This document shows positions 3,911 to 61,818 of a DNA stretch of 64,000 bases, piece after piece. The position numbers and the translations under genes were made by a program. The stretch comes from Macrotrachela quadricornifera (taxonomy: Eukaryota; Rotifera; Eurotatoria; Philodinida; Philodinidae): NCBI GenBank assembly GCA_022393335.1, contig JAJEKB010021111.1:559630-623629 (forward strand). Reading direction: 5' to 3'. Below the pieces are notes generated by a model, which was given only the letters and a program-made list of their open reading frames with translations, was not told where the DNA came from and did not search any database. Position 1 is the stretch's first letter. Each line of letters begins with the position of its first letter.

Positions 3911-4780
3911 TATTCTAAAAAGTTCTTCATCAATTGTCACTTTTTCAAGTTTGAATCTTTGTAAATCATTTATTTTAAGATATTTCAATATGTATTATTC
4001 AGGATTTTGAAATATTCTATCAGATATTTGAAAAATATATAAAATTTTCATTGGTAAATTATAGAAAAAAATCAACATGAATAGAGCATGATAGAAGCGA
4101 AATAAAAGTTTCTTTTCATCAATAGGCAAAATAAAATAATAATCTTCATATTTATTCAAGGTAAGTATCATATAGGATTGATGTTCTTCTAACACAAAAC
4201 AGCAGAAAGAAAAATGATTAACGACAACTAACGACAACTACAAACATTTTTCTGTGGCTATCAATCAACACCATTTAATATAGACTTAACTGTTGTTTGG
4301 GATTGGCTTGTTATTATTTTCTATACATGACGAAAAATAAAATAATTTCAATTTTCTACTCATTTATTTATTATTATAAAATGTGAAATAACGTTGTTTC
4401 TATTTAATTAATGTTACTTGAATATGCATTTTATTTTTACTTTTAAAATTATTTTTAACTATTTGAAAAATTCTTCTAAATGACAAATTTTAAGGATAAA
4501 ATTGTATATTAACTTAAAAACCGAATTAAAACAATTATTTTTACTCTTTCTTGTTTTTTTTTAACTTTAAACTGTTTTCATCATACAATAGGTCCGTATA
4601 TCAATATAACCCTGTCTTTTTTTCTCGGAAAAAAATTTTGCTTTTCTATTGTCTGTCGTTGTTTTGCGTTCTATTATTCTCTTATAAAATGAATGAATCA
4701 TAACAAAGATTGAAACATATATTTATTTAGACATTCGTCTACCGGTAAAATAAATCTATTAGAATTTTTAAAAAAAAAGC

Positions 4781-5656
4781 ATGGCATTAAGCGAAACACA
4801 TAGAATTATTTGGTTAGATGCATATATTGGTGAAGATGGTCAATATCACAGTTTTAAACGTATGTTCGTTACTACATTAGATCCCGATTCTCAGTTTGAT
4901 AATGAATATGATACGCTAATTTGTGCTTTAAATACAAATGCTGTTCCATTTATATTTGTTGATACTTGTGATAAAGCAATTCATGAAATCAACATAAACC
5001 ATGACAAACAAATTATATTTATTTCATCAGGATCACTTGGTAAACAAATAATTCCATCAATTATCTCGAAATATCATCACGTTTATTCGTTTTATATCTT
5101 TTGTGCTTTAATAAAAAATTATGTTGATTTTGCTTTTGAGTATCAACATTGTCTACAAATCTTTACTAGTGAACTCGACTTACTTATACGACTCGTACGT
5201 GATATATCGTTGGAAATGATTAAACGAGGAAAAAGACATTTGATAGAAAATGATCCAGATGTTGCACTTGATTATTTTCATCGTTCTCGTACATTAGAAT
5301 TGGCAGCAAACGAAAAAGACACACTGGATAATGCGACTACTGCTCGTTTGAGATTGTTGGATGGCGATAAAGATAATATTGGTCTCATTAAAGAAGCAGA
5401 AAATTTAAAACGACAACTAGATGAAGAAAGGGAAGAACAACAAGCAGAACCATTCATTCCAGATTACGATCGACATGGACAAGAAGAAGGCACGATATAC
5501 CAAAATCAAGACTTAACCACAGTAGAACAAGAACCAATTGATCACAATTCAGACTTAAACATAGCAGAAGAAGTAGCACTACAAGAACATAAAGGAGAAA
5601 TGCAACAAGATTCCGAGTTACCAATTGTGCCAGAAATATTAACAGTAGACCAATAA
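4781..5656 (+). CDS. Receiver-like-domain protein, full-length right-arm copy
   Basis: A 291-residue single-exon protein from the ATG at 4781. Residues 1-130 form an alpha/beta-looking domain: strand IIWLDAY at 9-15, a central VPFIFVD near 66, QIIFISSGSLGKQIIP near 76-91 and SFYIFC near 103. Residues 135-225 are helix-rich (the segment around FHRSRTLELAANEKD) and charged. Residues 226-291 are acidic, Gln/Glu-rich and probably disordered. It is the better preserved member of the inverted pair with 116-814. The strand order and the GxLGxxIIP element match the N-terminal exon at 22868-23408, which belongs to an ADP-ribosyltransferase-TPR gene, so this may be a stand-alone version of that domain. 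Function unknown; not recognised as a named family. Confidence 0.75.
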   Translation: MALSETHRIIWLDAYIGEDGQYHSFKRMFVTTLDPDSQFDNEYDTLICALNTNAVPFIFVDTCDKAIHEININHDKQIIFISSGSLGKQIIPSIISKYHHVYSFYIFCALIKNYVDFAFEYQHCLQIFTSELDLLIRLVRDISLEMIKRGKRHLIENDPDVALDYFHRSRTLELAANEKDTLDNATTARLRLLDGDKDNIGLIKEAENLKRQLDEEREEQQAEPFIPDYDRHGQEEGTIYQNQDLTTVEQEPIDHNSDLNIAEEVALQEHKGEMQQDSELPIVPEILTVDQ

Positions 5657-8799: not shown

Positions 8800-9720
8800 T
8801 ATTAACATGTTCTTCTCGCTGATAGTATGGTTCATAATAGTGAGGATCCATTTTGGAACGACCACTCACAATTTTAAGCCAAACCATGTTACCTGAATTG
8901 AAAATTGGATTAGTTCGACCTTTATCATAACGTTATTTACTAATTGTTTGTTGATACTGTATGTTAATTGGAGCGGCTCGAATTACTAGTCTCTTGAATT
9001 TAATTTGTGAAAGATAATTGTGGTGCAAAGGAGAAAATTGTCTTTCGATTAAATGCTAACTACGCCTGTATTACAGGCCCGCACAACCGATTGTAAATAA
9101 ATATCCCAATCGACAACATTGGTACTACAGTATTTCTTGAATTGATCACAAAATGTGCAATTAAAGCGCTCAACTTGGCCATTAGACATAGGGTGATGGG
9201 GAATGCAGAAGATTTGTTTATAACCAATAAATTTGGTGATGGTCGCTAGAAGGTCAGTTTTAAAATGAAGTTCTTGGTTTCACTGTAAATAACGAATTGC
9301 ACCATGTTTTAGTATTATATCTTCAAAAGGCATTTCAGCAGCATCCTTAGCAATTGCTGATGGTAACGCGTGTGCAAAAACAAATTTTGATAACCGATCG
9401 GTGATGATCAACACGTATTGATTACCACTAGATGAAGGAATCGGTGATTTCCATAAATTCATTTGAATGATTTCATAAACACCATTCGGCTTCTTTTGTG
9501 GATGTACATTGAATGGTGCACATTGAGGACAAGAACGAACATAGTGTTTGCCAGTGTCAAACATGTGGAGCCAACAAAATTTATCTCTGATCTTCATGTA
9601 CTTGCGTTTGATTTCAAAATGGGTATTAAATGGGTGGTCATGACATGCTGACAAAATGTCTGTAATTAATATAGACGGTATCCATAGTAATTCGGTTGTA
9701 ATATTCCCATTGCGAATCAC
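8800..9720 (-). pseudogene. Integrase remnant of the Gypsy-type element
   Basis: The open stretch 9280-9720 encodes the HHCC zinc-binding module (CHDHPFNTH ... RSCPQC) followed by the start of the catalytic core (VLIITDRLSKFVFAHALPS), typical of Ty3/Gypsy integrases. Further along the minus strand, near 8810-8900, lies the C-terminal part with WLKI and RSKMDPHYYEPYY-like wording. Stops and frame changes separate these blocks, so no complete integrase is encoded. The plus-strand open frame at 8612-8896 is only the antisense of this region. Confidence 0.8.
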
Positions 9721-10371
9721 TAATTTATATAAAACTTCATCTACTATAACTTCATAGGGAAACTTTCAAGAATCAGTTTGAATATCTCGAATTTTCATCT
9801 GAATATTGATCTCATTCATTTGTTTACGTCGAATACGATCAATACTAAAATCATAAACGGACGAGGATGAAGTATTCATCGTTGCGGCCGTTGTTATATT
9901 TTTATTTGTCACAACGACGGGATTCATTGCCACCTTAGCCTTTTTTTCGACCTGGCCATGATTTAAAATAATGACAGTTGGTTCAAGGTGGATGACTGAT
10001 TATAACGTTGAGTGCTGAATTGATGTTGATCATCGTCAACATCGGTTTCCACCTACATGGGTCGTCCTAAAGATAATCTTTTAACTTCTGAATGCACCAT
10101 ATCATTGATAAACATTCCTGTTCTGTTATGTAATACTTTTTCTGAACTGCACTGAATTTTTTCGAGACATATTTAATTACCTTAGATCCATTTGATGTAA
10201 TTTAGCGTAGAACACGACCCGTACCCTCGCCAGAAGCATCTGGGGACAATACGAATGATGAAATATCGTCTGAGAAGTTAAGAAATATAGGTGGTGTCGT
10301 CAAACAGTGCTTTAGATGATTAGATCCTATATCCATTTCCGGCGTCCATCCTTGCCAGACAGCATTCTTTT

Positions 10372-11032
10372 TCATATACAAAAATCATGGTACTGCAATT
10401 TTAGAAAAGTTTGGAATATGATCACGATAATAATTAGCAGCCTGTACAAACGAATGAACTTCTTTAGGTGATGTTGGTGTTGGTAGTTTAATGATAGCAT
10501 CAACATTCTCTTGTAAAGGTCGAATATCGTGTCCATTGATTGTGTGCACGAGAAGGTCGATTTCGGATTTAACCAATGAACATTTTTGTGGATTAAGTTG
10601 TAGATTAGTTTCAAATAAGATCGAAAGAATTTCATTTAAATGTGTAACATGTTGAAATGTACAGGTAAAGATTATCACATCATTAATATAAACAAGGCAA
10701 AAATCTCATCTTGTGTTTACCAAAAATTCGTACATAATTCGTTGAAAACTCGAAGAGGCATTCTTTAACTTTTGGAGCACCACCTTGAAGTGAAATAATC
10801 CATTAGATGTAATAAATGCAGTCTTTTCACGATCTGATGAATGGATGACTATTTGGTGATACACCGTTTTCAAATCTAATTTTGAGAAATAATTATGACT
10901 GTTCAATCTATTCAATGTATCTTCGATATGTTGTAAAGGATAACAGCTGCGGTGGGTGATATTATTAAGTTGACGATAATCGACGACAGACCTGTAAGTG
11001 CTGTCTTTCTTCGTGATTAAAAATACCGACAA
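10372..11032 (-). pseudogene. Reverse transcriptase remnant of the Gypsy-type element
   Basis: Two open blocks (10706-11032 and 10385-10678) encode the palm region of a Ty3/Gypsy reverse transcriptase. They include RSVVDYRQLNNIT, YFSKLDLKTVYHQI and the F-x-R/Q fingers-palm words, then the thumb/RNase H connection with KCSLVKSEIDLLVH. Between them the active-site box reads YIND where functional enzymes have Y-x-DD, so one catalytic aspartate is replaced. With the frame breaks, this copy is inactive. Confidence 0.85.
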
Positions 11033-11769
11033 GAATTACCTTGAATACGATTTTTCTATTTGCCCAACCTTCAACATCTCATCAGTTAGTTTTGATAGAT
11101 GTTTTTGTTTGATCTAATCGGTACGATAAACACGGGAGTAGATAGGAAGGTTTGGACTGGTGTTAATCATATGTGGTGCAAAAACTTTCGAAATTGATGG
11201 TTATGATGTATCGAAAATTTTTTGATATTTGTGAAACAGTTTAGCAATCTCGTACTTCTCATGCAAATCATGTAAATGGTTTAATAATTGATCAAAAATT
11301 TCATTCAATGAGTCAATTTTATTCAATTCCGATTATTGAGATCGAACCAATGGTGGTATCAATAGGAATCCGGCATGTTTTACTTGTCGGGTTAGTAATA
11401 GTAATACAAGTTTTATAATTTTGAATAGATAAAAGGGCATGTGAAATAGCAATTAGTTTGTAATATTGAAGATTTTGATTCGGATGAAAAATAGCATGTG
11501 ATGAGTGAGATAATGGTTGTCAATATTATTGTCCATAGGAATAGTAACAGTCGATTTCGTTGTATGAACAATAATTTGCTGACTTGGTTGACAGATATCA
11601 ACTGAATATTTTCGGATCTAATTTTGACCTAAAATACAAGATGTAGATACAGATTGTGACACAAGTGCTGTAATGATAGTTATAATATGGCCAATATTAA
11701 TATTGACTTGACCATCCACATGAAGTACCGTATCTTCATCTGCCAATTTGTATTTCTCTTTTGTTTTTC

Positions 11770-15210: not shown

Positions 15211-16131
15211 TTATTGAAATGCTTTGGCATTCTCTGTTAGCCATTGTTCAAATGTACGTAATGGTCGACCAATAATAATAGCTATTTCTGGAGTTGTCGT
15301 TTCGCATATATCTTTTGAAGGAAACATTGCAAAGTGATAAACTAATGAATGAGGTAGTCCATTACCAGTAAGTGTTTTATAGAAATCTTCTACTGATAAT
15401 TGTTTATATACGATAGATCTTCCTAATACTTTAGAAAGAATAGTTGCACGTTGTTCATTAGTTAATTTTTCAGCACCCATATCATAAACATTTCGATCAT
15501 GTTTTTCTATTGATTCACTTAAAACAACAACAGCACAATCCGAAATATCTTTAGTATCAATCCAAGTTGTTGGTGATGAAGGTAATCCAGAAGAGACAAG
15601 TGTATTTGAATGTTTAATACTATGAATATCATGCATAAAATGATTTGACATGAATGAACCAGGACGAATTACAACTAATGAACGTTGTTCAGAATTTTCA
15701 TCAGCAAGTTTCCATAATTTTTCTTCAGCTGCTGTATGTATATATCCAATAATACCTTTTCTACCATAAGTAGTAACAAAAGCTGAAGAAAGATCAACAA
15801 TTTGTTTAACACCTTGTTCAAAAGCAATCTTAGCAAAAGTTTCTTTTATTTCACTCATTGATGCTGGTTTATTACCAGTAACGGCAACAAGAAGAAAAAG
15901 CCGAGTATGTCCTTGAATTGCTTTTGTAAATACATCAATAGATGAATACGTACCAACGACAAACTTAAGATGACCAGTGTTTACTTCATCTTTAAATAAA
16001 TCTTTAGCTTTCTGTTCATCTCTTACATATGCTGTTGTGTCAATTCCCTTTTTAACAAGACCACGCACAATACCACTACCAATATTACCACTTGCTGCAG
16101 TGACAAACACACGTTCTTTGCTCGACGACAT
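15211..16131 (-). CDS. NmrA-like NAD(P)-binding oxidoreductase (atypical short-chain dehydrogenase)
   Basis: A 306-residue single-exon protein. The N-terminus VFVTAASGNIGSGIVRGL (residues about 8-25) is the glycine-rich dinucleotide-binding loop (GxxGxxG form, T-A-A-S-G-N-I-G) of atypical SDR/NmrA proteins. It is followed by a second strand with TAYVRDEQKA, where an Arg is typical of NADP preference. FLLVAVTGN near residue 80 and VDLSSAF near 112 fit later Rossmann strands, RPGSFMSN near 158 is the substrate-side P-G-x-F-M-x-N motif, and the WIDTKDISDCAVVVL block is typical of the NmrA C-terminal half. Members act as quinone or other NADPH oxidoreductases, or as redox-sensing regulators without catalysis; which applies here cannot be told. 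A decayed inverted copy starts 408 bp upstream (16540-17315). Confidence 0.88.
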   Translation of the reverse strand: MSSSKERVFVTAASGNIGSGIVRGLVKKGIDTTAYVRDEQKAKDLFKDEVNTGHLKFVVGTYSSIDVFTKAIQGHTRLFLLVAVTGNKPASMSEIKETFAKIAFEQGVKQIVDLSSAFVTTYGRKGIIGYIHTAAEEKLWKLADENSEQRSLVVIRPGSFMSNHFMHDIHSIKHSNTLVSSGLPSSPTTWIDTKDISDCAVVVLSESIEKHDRNVYDMGAEKLTNEQRATILSKVLGRSIVYKQLSVEDFYKTLTGNGLPHSLVYHFAMFPSKDICETTTPEIAIIIGRPLRTFEQWLTENAKAFQ

Positions 16132-16539
16132 GTTAACGATCAGAATGAAAAGAAAAATTTTTTTTATGTGTTTTTATAAAGGATAAAATGCAACGCATGA
16201 TGACAAGACAAAAATGCGGGATGGATGTAATTAAAGTACGATCGCGCACGCTTCGTAAAAAACGCGTGGTTAGTCTAAAATAAGAATAAATATTTTTATC
16301 AGTTTCTAACCTATTCATAATTGAATGTATAAAATAGATTTTTATCATTTAAATTGGGATAGTTATAGTCAAATAGTTACAAATTGAAAAATACTTCTAA
16401 ATGCCAAGATTTACGTTTTTTCTTCAAAATGTGTGTCATTGCAGTTTCATTACACGTGTGATTTTTTTTTTATTTTTCTCTCATACCTCGTTGATAAAAA
16501 GGCAAGCAATAGATTAATCTTACTCTTTTTATTATGAAG

Positions 16540-17315
16540 ATGTCGTTGAGTGAAGAACGCGTGTTCGTAATTAGAGTAACTGGAGATATCGGTAGTGGTG
16601 TTGTTCATCGTCTCTATAAAAGTAATTCAAGGATATACTCGGCTTTTCCTTCTCATTACTGGCAATAGTAAGAGACCAGCATCGATGAGTGTAATTAAAA
16701 GGAATTTTGTCAAAATTGCTTTCGAACAAGATGTTTGACAAATTGTTGATCTAACATCAACTTGTGTTAGTACTCATGTCAAGAAAGGTATCATTGGATA
16801 TGGACATATAACAGCGGAAGAAAAACTATGGACACCCGCTGATGAAAATCCTGAACCTTCATTCTGAATTATTCATATCCAATCACTTTATGCATGATGG
16901 CCATAGTATCAAACATTCAATTAAACTTATCTCTTGTGGATTACCTTCATCTACAATGAATTGGATCGATACTAAAGATATTTCTGACTGTGCTGTAATT
17001 ATTTTGAGTGAATCAATAGAAAAACATGATCGTAATGTCTATGAACTGTGTGGTGAAATTTTCAATAATGAACAGCGTGCAGCTATTTTTTCCAAAGTGC
17101 TTGGTAAAACTGTCATATATGAGCAACAATCTATAGAATATTAGTAGGAGACATTAACTGGTATTGGCATGTCTCATTCGGTCGCCTATAATTTTGTATC
17201 AATCTTTACACAGAGTATAGGTGATATTCCTACTCCTCAATTGTCTATTCTAATCAACCGACCATTGTGTACACTGGAGGAATGGCTAAGGAAGAACATC
17301 AAAATATTTCAATAA
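16540..17315 (+). pseudogene. Decayed head-to-head copy of the NmrA-like gene
   Basis: Starts with an ATG and the same glycine-rich opening as its neighbour (VFVIRVTGDIGSGVVHRL), then loses about 55-60 codons by deletion near 16615. Later blocks still match: MSVIKRNFVKIAFEQD, then SNHFMHDGHSIKHS, and SSTMNWIDTKDISDCAV, ending EEWLRKNIKIFQ. Lesions are the internal deletion, an in-frame TGA near 16736, a frameshift near 16850 and a TAG near 17142. The longest surviving frame is 16842-17144. It is clearly a pseudogene from an inverted duplication. Confidence 0.88.
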
Positions 17316-55993: not shown

Positions 55994-56157
55994 CTAGTGA
56001 ACAGGGGCGGCGCGAAAGGGTAAAAGCAGAGGGGGGGTATTTTCTAAAATGGAGAAAATTTTAGAAATCGCTTTGACTTTGAAAAATTAAAGTCTTAGCA
56101 TCTAAGTTAATAATAAAAACAACTGTATTATTAGCCTCTACTTGTTCGTCTATATAT

Positions 56158-59100
56158 TTAATAAAAAGTAACTTTAAAAAAACCAAAGAAGAACATAAAC
56201 AAGTTAAATTCGACGCCCAACTTTTTTTTTGACCATTTTTGAGCTAATTTTTTATTATCAATTTGATCTAAAATTGATGTTTCTAATGCACATGTAAGTA
56301 ATGAATGTAAGCGATCATCATTCATTTTTGTTCGTAATCTATTTTTCACGATCTTCATTTTACTAAATGATCGCTCTACACTTGCTACACTAACAGGTAA
56401 TGTTAGAAGATATTCATAAGCTTGAGCCAGTAATGGAACATATGATTTTCGTTCATGAACAAATTTACTTGCAAGATTAATTGTTTCAAATTCACATATC
56501 TTCATTTTTAATAGTTGTGCCTCATTAAATAATAAATCACAATCATCAATTTGTAACATTTTACATATATTAGCAGCATCGTTTTTGGTAAAGTTAATTA
56601 TATATTTAGGTGATAATTTTGATAATGATTGAACATTTGAATCAATCGACATTAAAATTTGTTTATATTCGACAATCAACTGATCCATCACTTGTCGAAA
56701 TATTCTTCTATAATGTTCTATTCTAAATCAGTAGAAAATATGAATAAGTTTCTGAGAACAGTGAAGTTTAGAGCAACTATTCTGCTAAATAGAAAAGAAA
56801 TCCTCATCAATGAAAAAGAGCTACCGTGAAAAATGATGAGCTGTTTGTGGATTATTATCATATTTTTTTGGTGGTCTTCTTTTCCTATGTTTACGATTAA
56901 ATTCATCATCTGGATCGATCCCATATTTTCTTGTCATCTTTTCAGCAACAAAAATTATATTGTTCAAGTTATCATCATTTAAACGTTCAAATTCTAATAA
57001 TCGTACAGTTTCAGCCAGTAATTCACCAGCTGTAAGTAAATCTAATCTTTCAGCTTGAAATTGAGTTGTGATACTGTTGGTCATTGCCATCAGATTTTTC
57101 ATAAAAACTAAATATGTCATGAAATTGAATGTTGTAATACAAGTATTGATAGAACTAGCTTCTTGTCGTGATTCTGGATCAAAATTAGCATCATCATTAG
57201 TTATTGCATTCAATGCTTGAATAACTTCATCAAGTGATTCATAAATAGCTCTCATAGATTGATATTTAGCATTCCATCTAGTTGTTGATGTTGTTTTCGG
57301 TGTCAATGCAAATATGTTTGATGAATACTTATCATCAAGTACAGCTAATCTGAATAACATAAAAAAGGATGCTAACGTAAAAAACACTGTTCTTAGACAA
57401 AGCATTCCTACCTTTTGGTACTAGCAGTAAAAAAAACATATATATTCTGAAGTGTTCCAAAAAAACTGTGTATATCTAAACTAGCTTCAGACGAATGTTT
57501 AACAACTGTATTAGATCTATGTGATGAACAAGGAATATATTTTATGTCACGTTGTAGTTTTTCACAAAGTTTAGCCTGAACACCATTAAATTGACCACTC
57601 ATGTTCTTGGCAAAATCATACGATTGTGAGATTAATTTATTTGTATCTAATTCAAGTTCATTTAATACTTCTAACAAATGATTTGCAATACCATCACCTA
57701 AAAGGTAGAGATTGCGATCAAAGTTATGTATAACCTAGCGCTAGAAAATCTGGATTTAATCTGACCTCAAAACATCTTGTATTTGTAACCTAACGCTAAA
57801 TTAGTGAACTCTATTGTCTCGTGTATCTCTTGCAAAATTAAAACCTTTTCATCCTAAGTTTATTAAGTATTAATTTAAGTTTGCTTGCTTGTCTATTATT
57901 ACGAACTTGACTGATAATAATTTTTCGAGTGACTGTACCAGTTTTCATGTGTAATTGCTTGATTGATACGAAACGTTCTTCAGGTTCACCTTGTTCATTG
58001 ACAAATCGAATAAAAACAGATAACATATCTTGACGATTAGAATCTATTGCAGAATCAGCCATAACTGAATAATACGATGCTCTTCGTATATCAGATAAAT
58101 TTTCCTGTTGTACATAATCACCCAATAGTTCGATAAACTCATTTTGAGAATCTTTACTCATGTATGTGGTCTAACAGAAAACATATGAGTCGTTTTACAA
58201 AAAACAGACTACAAAAAAAGCTTAGTAGTCGCATATTTACTTTAAATGGACGATTATTATTATTTTTTATCCAATCGTTCAATAATGAATTATGTCGTGA
58301 TAACAAATAAACCAGCTGATGAAAATTACCTTCTTCATCTTCATGACCACGAAACGCTAAACCTTGTCGAGCTAAATATCGAGCACAATCAATTAGCATA
58401 TTAATTACTTCTTCATTTGATTTATTTTGTTCGATTTTTTGTTGTTCTTGTTGCTGCAAATTTTTATCCAACATATAATCAACATTATTTTTACGTTCTT
58501 TAAAATTCAAATAACGTTGTAATGAAGATTGATGAGTTTCACTTCGAATATGTACATCCAATTTTCCTTTCTTTCCAGCTCCTTGACTACCTAAATCAAA
58601 ATAACCAGGTTGCAAAAACAATCAATTATTATTGAATAAGTTATAATTCAAAAACCTTTTATTTTATTCCAAGTTCTGACACCAGATGAGATCCACGCAC
58701 TCTCTGATTGTGCACAACCAGGACCAAAACCAAACAGACGACAACAAAAGCAATATATTGAGTCGGTTATTAGACTATACTCAACTAATGGAAATTCATT
58801 ATACCATCCTGATACAAAATGACATGTATTATTATTTTTTTTTAATTTTTCATCAATTGGATAACGTGCTAATTTAGGCTGATATGGACCTTGTTCAACT
58901 AAATAGCGTAATTCTACTTCATTATAGATCTTTGTTCTTGATGGATCACGAGATATAATTGTTTCTGATGATCTTAATTTATCAACATCAACAGTTGTTG
59001 ATGTGGATGATATATTTTTAAGTGTTGTATTACATAAAACTAATAAATCATTTAGTGACTCTTTTATTTTATCAAAAGATGATGCTGTTTCAATTACAAA

Positions 59101-59599
59101 ATTTTTTGTACTAACAGTTTCATCAAATGACCTCTCAATAACTTTAGATGCAAGTTGAGTTTGTTTTAAAATAAATTGAATGTGACCACAAATATTATTT
59201 TTTATTTCAGTGATATTTTGAGAACTATCTGAAGGTGTATATTCATCGAGTAATACATCAGGTGATGATGATACACATTCATTATCAGCTAATGCTTGAG
59301 TTATTTCTTTTTCTATCATATCCGGTGATGTTTCATTTGATGTTGGTGTTAATGGCTCATTCGATGTTGTTAATTCTAGAAAGATGCTATTAGCTAATGA
59401 TTATTTTTACATGAATTATATTACTTGATGTTGATAACTGTAAAGATTGATTATTAATAGTTTCTTTAAGTGTTTTTAGTAATTTTTCATATTTTTCTTT
59501 GGTATCAACACTATTATGACGATCACAGTGACGTTTAAAGTTTTTGACAAGAATCGTTGTAAAACATAATGGACATTTCCCTGAAGAACTACTGGACAT
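56158..59599 (-). CDS. hAT transposase, zinc finger MYM/TTF-type with DUF4371 and C-terminal dimerisation domain
   Basis: Seven exons placed from GT-AG sites: 59599-59425, 59375-58656, 58590-58241, 58170-57939, 57697-57412, 57349-56825 and 56722-56158. Their summed length is 2853 nt, a multiple of three, giving 950 residues, and every junction keeps frame. Residues 8-28 hold a C2H2-like finger (CPLCFTTILVKNFKRHCDRH). The middle has a TTF-type zinc finger (WYNEFPLVEYSLITDSIYCF then CCRLFG, and later HIRSETHQSSLQ). Then come a DUF4371-like catalytic region (ISQSYDFAKNMSGQFNGVQ with the conserved D, and IPCSSHRSNTVVKHS) and the hAT dimerisation block LTLPVSVASVERSFSKMKIV followed by KNRLRTKMNDDRLHSLL. 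It would cut and re-join the element as an oligomer in the nucleus. It lies inside intact TIRs. The longest intron (57698-57938, 241 bp) is less certain than the rest. Confidence 0.9.
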
Positions 59600-60115
59600 T
59601 ATATTAATAAATCTAAAATACAAGTCTAGTAGTGTGATGTGAAACTTTCATTTGGTGGACCGAGTATAGCTATCATAATAAAGTTCTAGAAAAAAAATTC
59701 TCAATGGCAAAGCTAAAAATAATAATAAAATCATTCTATGCGTCATCCGTCAAGAGAGGAGAACAAAATAATATTATTATTTGATAATACACGCACCAAT
59801 GAGTGATCATCATTATCTCAAACTACTAGGTATTTCAAATCATAGGTGTCTATAGTAGAAAGAGTGAATTTGAATATAGCTTGTATTGATCTTACACTAG
59901 TCGTGACACGCTTCTCGATAAACAAACGATTAAATATATATTAACTAAGGAGAATGTTACTTCAATTTGTTACATATATAAGATTTTTACAATGATTTCT
60001 TAGTATTAATAATTCTTTCTTTTTAAAGCAGAAGAATAATGAAATTTTTAAGTTTTCATTATAAATCAGGAAAAAATCGAGAGAGCTAAAATAAGTTGTC
60101 AAGTTCCGAAGAAGT

Positions 60116-60320
60116 TTGAGACATATATATCCTCTCAAATTGGAGAAAATTCAAGGTATATTTTCTCCTGTATTGAAGAAAATTTCAAATGTATTTCCTC
60201 CGAAATTGGAGAAATTTCAAGGTATATTTTCTCCCGCATTGATGAGAATTTCACATGTATTTCCTCCGAAATGGGAGAAAACTCAAGGTATATTTTCTCC
60301 AAAATCAGAGAAAATTTTAG
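60116..60320. repeat. Subterminal tandem repeats of the hAT element
   Basis: About 72-bp units with the words TCAAGGTATATTTTCTCC and ATGTATTTCCTCCGAAAT repeat nearly three times, and each carries TTGGAGAAA-like words in alternating orientation. In hAT elements such subterminal motifs are transposase-binding sites; that role here is inference. A TGGAGAAAATTTTAG word also occurs near the left end (56050-56064). Confidence 0.7.
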
Positions 60321-60424
60321 ATAATTTTCTGGCAAAATCGGAGAAAGCTCTGTTCACATTTTCTAAAAGCAGGAGGGGGGTACCCTCCTATCCCCCCCCC
60401 GGTCGCGCCGCCCCTGCTAGTGAA

Positions 60425-60901
60425 AACTCGACCGTACTGATATTGACACACAGTATCTGGTAACTAATTTTTTCGAAAGTTGAATCGATAATCTAGACAA
60501 AAAAGAAAAATAATATAGGTATTCTGTGACCATTCAAAGATTATTTTTTTCAAAGACCAGTAGTGGTTGTAATATTGCAAAAGTTTCGGCAGTCGTAGAA
60601 ATGCTGTCATACAGAGTTTCGTTCAGATCGCTCCGTTTAGATTAACTCGTATTCTTCTTGTCCAAAAAGCACTCAGAAACGAAAACAACTGTACAAGGAC
60701 CTGCGAATATTTTACTTACAGTTAGAAAGATCTGCCGTCTTCCTATCGCTGAAATAGGAGACATGAAAATAATAGGAATTGTTAGAACGACATTGAATTG
60801 ACTCCTCGTTGTTTTCACGATAATAGAACGTGTGACATTTCGTTTCTAGTCGCCCAAGAAGTAATCTATTACGATGAGATCTACTTCAATTTCTTTTTTA
60901 G
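60425..60901. other. Short intergenic interval upstream of the NHL gene
   Basis: No clear coding content. A first exon of the NHL protein gene would be expected here or further upstream, but none is certain. Confidence 0.4.
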
Positions 60902-61818
60902 CTCTCCCAAACATTTCTTCCAATGCCAGATGGACACAAAATGGCATCATTGTCGCTGGCGGTCACGGACGAGGCAATGTACTCAACCAACTTAATCATC
61001 CTTGCGGTCTCTATGTGGATGATGATCAAACTATTTTGATTGCTGATCATTATAATCATCGAATTGTAGAATGGAAATGTGGTGCAACGAATGGAGAAGT
61101 GATAGCCGGTGGAAATGGACCAGGAAATCGAAATGATCAATTGTTTTGTCCATCAGATATTATTGTTGTCAAAGAGACAAATAATCTTATCATCTGTGAT
61201 CGATACAACCGACGAGTGATGCAATGGCCGCGTCAAAGTGGTACTAGTGGATCAGTGATAATCGAGGATATCTCTTGTTTTGGACTGACGATGGACGACC
61301 AGCGTTTTCTCTACGTTTCTGATTACCAAAATCATGAAGTAAGACGATATCGACTGGGTGAAACGAATGGAACATTAGTGACGAGCAGCAATGAAAGAGA
61401 TGATCGTCTCGACAAACTCTCTCATCCTCACAATATCTTCGTCGATCGAGATCACTCTTTGTACGTGTCGGACAACAACAATCATCGTGTAATGAAATGG
61501 ACGAAGAATGCAAAAGAAGGGACTGTCGTAGCTGGGGGTCGAGGACAAGGAAATGAGCTCACACAGTTGTCCTGTCCTACAGGATTATTCGTCGATTCCG
61601 TAGGGACCATCTATGTGGCAGATTGTAATAATCATCGAGTGATGCGTTGGTGTAAAGGTGCCACAGAAGGAGAGGTGATTGTAGGCGGAAATAATCAGAC
61701 ACAACACACAAATCTATTGAAGTGTCCTACAGATTTGTCATTCGACAGATATGGCAATCTCTATGTCAGCGACTGGGCTAACCATCAAGTAAAACAATTC
61801 CCCATCGAAACAATTTGA
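60902..61818 (+). CDS. NHL-repeat beta-propeller protein (main exon)
   Basis: About 305 residues after a strong acceptor (TTCTTTTTTAG ending at 60901); an in-frame ATG at 60874 exists but falls in the apparent intron tract, so the true start is probably in an upstream exon. Six NHL-type repeats are visible, each with a pattern G-L-x-V-D ... I-A-D-x-x-N-H-R-I/V: GLYVDDDQTILIADHYNHRI, NNLIICDRYNRRVMQW, RFLYVSDYQNHEVRRY, DHSLYVSDNNNHRVMKW, GTIYVADCNNHRVMRW and GNLYVSDWANHQVKQF. Linkers carry VAGGxGxGN. Together they form one six-bladed beta-propeller used for protein or RNA binding. No RING or B-box is seen in this exon. Such genes are numerous in bdelloids, and the exact partner is unknown. Confidence 0.9.

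Follow-up and report, generated by a model that had tools for sequence, protein, structure and literature searches.

A probably young, hemizygous insertion of a Tip-like hAT transposon in a bdelloid rotifer genome

The stretch of DNA considered here, called the window throughout, comprises 64,000 nucleotides from the rotifer Macrotrachela quadricornifera (assembly GCA_022393335.1, contig JAJEKB010021111.1, positions 559,630 to 623,629 of the forward strand), and carries at window positions 56002-60416 an element of 4415 bp. This element is very probably a hAT DNA transposon of the DUF4371 type (Tip-like), hosted by a bdelloid rotifer, that transposed after the homologous sequences of its host had diverged. 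Comparison with other copies and with a homologous contig supports recent movement and points to a young hemizygous insertion, which is ordinary in kind and well documented by sequence. The element ends in identical 14-bp terminal inverted repeats (TIRs), is flanked on both sides by a perfect 8-bp target-site duplication (TSD), and contains a minus-strand transposase gene of seven exons. Its features are as follows.

55994..56001, plus strand: left TSD CTAGTGAA, abutting the left TIR; single copy CTAATGAA at the empty homologous site
56002..56015, plus strand: left TIR CAGGGGCGGCGCGA, perfect over 14 bp, 89% complementary over 19 nt
56158..56722, minus strand: exon 7, hAT C-terminal dimerisation region and putative catalytic E, ending in a homopolymer-shifted tail near 56222
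56825..57349, minus strand: exon 6, RW motif
57412..57697, minus strand: exon 5, second putative catalytic D region and CxxH motif
57939..58170, minus strand: exon 4, first putative catalytic D region
58241..58590, minus strand: exon 3
58656..59375, minus strand: exon 2, region which we take to be TTF-type zinc-finger-like
59425..59599, minus strand: exon 1, start codon and CxxC...HxxxH zinc-finger-like motif (read by eye)
60121..60346, plus strand: subterminal 33/66-bp tandem array with inverted GGAGAAA motifs
60403..60416, minus strand: right TIR, 14-mer identical to the left
60417..60424, plus strand: right TSD CTAGTGAA, abutting the right TIR

The evidence that carries this reading comes from the same assembly. 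The left flank of the element matches a homologous contig, C4716, at 94-97% identity, the window contig being about 95% identical to C4716 over the pieces compared (the summed mismatch of 4.9% includes overlapping repeat rows), and on C4716 the two flanks meet on the same 8 bases, CTAATGAA, where the left one stops and the right one starts; as judged from this alignment, C4716 represents the empty site, and the insertion is present on one homolog only. A sister copy on contig C4569, L002, differs from the window copy by 26 substitutions in 4414 aligned bases and by five indels, lies in flanks dissimilar to those of the window, and possesses its own TSD, ATTTTTTC; related sequence on contigs C1696 and C1395 shows the L002 site with a single ATTTTTTC. 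The divergence between the two elements, 0.6%, is far below the approximately 5% that separates the homologs. The empty homologous site, together with a near-identical sister in unrelated flanks, therefore indicates that the element transposed after the homologs diverged. An older event is represented by two deletion copies, L005 and L006, which correspond to one common insertion with the TSD CCTAATTG on two contigs that are 96.9% identical; because the same site is occupied on both homologous contigs, this insertion is older than that in the window.

A preliminary description of this stretch, made from its letters alone, had claimed recent mobility and proposed searching for near-identical copies and for empty sites with a single target copy; L002 and C4716 are such cases, and both uphold the claim. 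The argument it had offered, an intact copy beside dead relatives in a window where every other transposon with coding capacity is broken, fares differently. The transposon-like open reading frames (ORFs) scanned, which are part of the ORFs in the window, are indeed fragments, but they are Ty3-like and DDE_3-like, thus from other superfamilies, and since they are not relatives of the element, the case for recency rests on copies elsewhere.

At up to three mismatches the TIR 14-mer has two matches in the window, both being the element ends (chance mean 0.19). The 450-Mb assembly holds 30 exact occurrences of it (13 forward, 17 reverse), as against zero occurrences of a backwards-read control, on which basis a chance origin of the TIR and TSD was rejected. 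The CTAGTGAA 8-mer by itself is not rare, with four occurrences in the window where 1.81 are expected; what makes the duplication meaningful is its position directly beside both TIRs, and the presence of one copy, CTAATGAA, where the flanks join on the homologous contig. Short TIRs starting CAGGG, which we take to be a hAT trait, are represented here by the perfect 14-bp CAGGGGCGGCGCGA. Comparison by eye revealed no consistent TSD motif common to the copies, and no second copy of the element was found in the window, where self-comparison picks out nothing beyond the element and the repeats inside it. The GGAGAAA motif is present eight times within the element, once in the first 100 bp and seven times in the last 320 bp, and 11 times in the remainder of the window (0.18 per kb); some of these motifs are kept in the divergent copy L004, in 2-kb copies and in a 166-bp copy, while the copy L003 keeps two. 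The subterminal array is a candidate transposase-binding and promoter region.

The transposase gene reads through 950 codons in seven exons with no internal stop and with consistent exon phases, as the preliminary description had it; its stop codon ends at 56158, and its six predicted introns (49, 65, 70, 241, 62 and 102 nt) are all GT-AG. Up to residue 932, rotifer database proteins align collinearly with the joined exons and run across the joins, which supports the predicted exon joins. Intron ends are also conserved among copies, L002 retaining all 12 GT and AG dinucleotides and L003 retaining 11 of them; in L004, five of six donors and all six acceptors lie in the same columns, the GT of intron 1 being found, by reading, three bases further on.

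The assignment to hAT made at the outset is borne out by domain content: the protein matches DUF4371 (PF14291; 53.7 bits, cut-off 32.1) and the hAT dimerisation domain (PF05699; 33.8 bits, cut-off 21.4). The aligned positions of the DDE triad, the CxxH motif and the RW motif, names which we presume to be the appropriate ones, are present in the window protein, as seen by sequence alignment and not by residue-level superposition on Hermes. A PDB sequence search with the transposase gave no match at E<=1 among 177635 distinct sequences; the structural comparison was therefore made with the fold predicted for a relative, the Rotaria socialis protein P0001, which matches that of Hermes (Hermes-like RNase H fold). 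Taken together, DUF4371 and the hAT dimerisation domain, the 8-bp TSD, the TIRs and the predicted fold of the relative place the element in the hAT superfamily. It appears to be of the DUF4371, Tip-like type, the likeness to Tip being one of domain content, with a tree that holds DUF4371 kin without Tip100 or BuT2. Among the matches listed, none of them above 80% identity, the closest named relatives of both the transposase and a G protein-coupled receptor gene of the window are from Rotaria and Adineta, which identifies the host of the window as a bdelloid rotifer.

These components suggest a mechanism in which the minus-strand gene, once its six introns are spliced as their sequence predicts, would encode a DDE transposase of Hermes fold bearing zinc-finger-like motifs at its N-terminus. 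Binding of this enzyme to the TIRs and to the subterminal GGAGAAA repeats would lead to excision of the element and its insertion at a new site, with duplication of 8 bp of target, by the cut-and-paste chemistry with hairpinned flanks that is a trait of the hAT superfamily.

The element belongs to a family whose copy number here is a lower bound, 40 of 90 candidates having been scored. L004 differs from the window copy at 26.7% of aligned bases when matches are summed, is 74% identical to it in the best match, and has the TSD TGTAGATT, whereas L003 is a 94% copy with a broken frame. An 8-bp TSD was also found for L002, L005/L006 and L025-L027; none was seen for L003, though L003 and L008 have common flanks (94.6% and 91.0%). 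Two non-autonomous copies of 2.02 kb have identical TIRs and separate perfect TSDs, with 22 substitutions over 2020 positions between them. Of the 30 TIR loci, all tested for pairing over about 3 kb each, so that long elements could not be paired, nine paired at the length of miniature inverted-repeat transposable elements (MITEs; 133-167 bp), eight with a perfect TSD and one with a single mismatch; the alignment of these nine gives a mean identity of 96.3% over 36 pairs. The MITE family, with a common TIR, consists of L035, L037 (the same copy as L027), L038, L040, L045, L050, L053, L058 and L060, and one MITE end resembles the 3' end of the full element. Further copies may be unassembled, since L020, L021 and L022 meet runs of N at or near the element end.

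Several observations weigh against the view of a recently and competently mobile element. The relatives of the L002 site on C1696 and C1395 are repeated sequence, 82-92% identical, and constitute weaker evidence than C4716. The window transposase is frameshifted at its C-terminus relative to its kin, and L002 is frameshifted in exon 5, with its first stop at codon 585. Finally, the window and L002 differ by 13 nonsynonymous (N) and 4 synonymous (S) changes, with a ratio of nonsynonymous to synonymous rates (dN/dS) of 0.83 (p 0.76), and thus no detectable constraint over 17 changes. These codon comparisons omit every codon for which one of the two rows has a gap or a stop (8 stop codons per pair with L003), as well as the tail, window positions up to 56222; columns that are insertions of other copies with respect to the window were skipped.

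The tail is central to the question of competence. Near 56222 a homopolymer is one base shorter in the window copy than in L002 and L004, placing the last 18-20 residues out of frame with respect to relatives, and BLASTP alignments to P0001, P0002, P0003 and L004 end at residue 932; there, P0001, P0003 and L004 continue with a short tail containing GRR, and the window protein with 18 unrelated residues. L003 has a separate deletion at the same homopolymer region, in addition to several stops and frameshifts, while L004 has an open frame of 937 codons. The missing base could reflect either a mutation or an error of assembly. The element had been described as structurally complete; TIRs, TSD and the 950-codon frame sustain this, while the missing base near the stop and the replaced last residues do not, and by its sequence the copy seems only partly intact. 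Its own competence is uncertain because of this tail.

There is close to an even chance that the window copy is already inactive, having been moved in trans or having died after landing, with a working enzyme supplied from another copy. The frameshifts in the window copy and in L002 agree with this, as does the open frame of L004, and mobilisation of such ends in trans is suggested by the 2-kb copies and MITEs, which carry the same TIR and have separate 8-bp TSDs; however, the shift lies outside the recognised domains, and L004 is a distant candidate at 74% identity in its best match. It is plausible, if somewhat doubtful, that the window copy is instead fully autonomous and currently active, in which case the tail difference would be an assembly error or of no consequence. 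The shift, of a single homopolymer base, comes after the recognised domains and the catalytic positions, and coding changes polarised with L003 give 3 N : 4 S private to the window as opposed to 10 N : 0 S private to L002 (Fisher p 0.015; small numbers), the former holding fewer nonsynonymous changes than neutral (p 0.036). Nevertheless, seven private changes are too few for firm inference, and the GRR tail is missing.

That the empty site on C4716 arose by precise excision, and is not a pre-insertion site, is quite improbable. hAT elements do excise, but their excision usually leaves footprints, and C4716 has none, with one target copy only; related sequence on two contigs shows the L002 site to be equally clean. 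Domestication as a host gene, despite purifying selection between the window copy and L004 (dN/dS 0.30), is extremely improbable and was rejected on the empty homologous site, with intact TIRs and TSD and dispersed copies also opposing it.

With respect to the surroundings, the sole ORF of at least 120 aa that crosses an element boundary (60095-60463) is made up of repeat and TIR plus 47 bases of flanking sequence. The candidate gene closest to the insertion is an NHL-repeat ORF (60865-61818) about 450 bp away, for which, with 40 of 666 candidates scored, there are at least 40 matches, those in the window and its homolog among them. Elsewhere, Ty3-like retroelement remnants (RVT_1, Integrase_H2C2, rve_3) are split over several frames at 9052-11035 on the minus strand, and the segment 47382-51270, inverted relative to C4716 and lying between inverted repeats of about 341 nt that are 95.6% identical, holds a broken DDE_3-like transposon whose DDE_3 match is below the Pfam cut-off. 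Inverted duplicate ORFs about 90% identical lie at 116-832, this copy being without a Pfam match, and 4772-5656, and an NmrA-like ORF at 15211-17315 adjoins a second copy, 75% identical and in opposite orientation.

The element is named in no title or abstract opening among those listed by literature searches. In PMC7943196, bdelloid transposable elements are reported as recently active, with most low-divergence copies being of class II, and a hemizygous-looking insertion of a long terminal repeat element is described with an empty homologous scaffold; the word hAT is absent from its main text. The present insertion would be a relatively dated, hemizygous DNA transposon with an empty homolog in a bdelloid, and adds a class II case and a non-autonomous family to published recent transposition in these animals, introducing no new principle. 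A wider view, which we hold to be possible though short of probable, is that a hAT clade confined to bdelloids is currently transposing in an animal that is putatively asexual over the long term, its autonomous source, 2-kb deletion copies and MITEs of about 165 bp all having one TIR in common. If true, the presence or absence of insertions on homologous chromosomes could serve to date transposition in an animal for which meiosis is not known.

The nearest known counterparts are unnamed bdelloid DUF4371 proteins, P0001, P0002 (R. sordida) and P0003 (Adineta steineri), which have the same domains and motif variants as the window protein, form with it a clade of 100/100 support (in a tree of DUF4371 kin only), and are 58-63% identical to it over the BLASTP alignment (P0002 from residue 127 only); the short GRR tail of P0001 and P0003 sets them apart from it. 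Hermes resembles the family in its catalytic fold, as predicted for P0001, at 15% identity in the VIA match, and presumably differs from the window transposase in its N-terminal zinc-finger regions. BuT2, which like Tip100 is of the Tip group of hAT elements, is described in PMC3942097 as a five-exon gene encoding 643 aa with DUF4371 and hATC, with an 8-bp TSD in its group and MITE-like relatives. The family of the window element has these features of domains, TSD and MITE-like relatives in common with BuT2 and its group, and differs from BuT2, as characterised there, in encoding 950 aa in seven exons.
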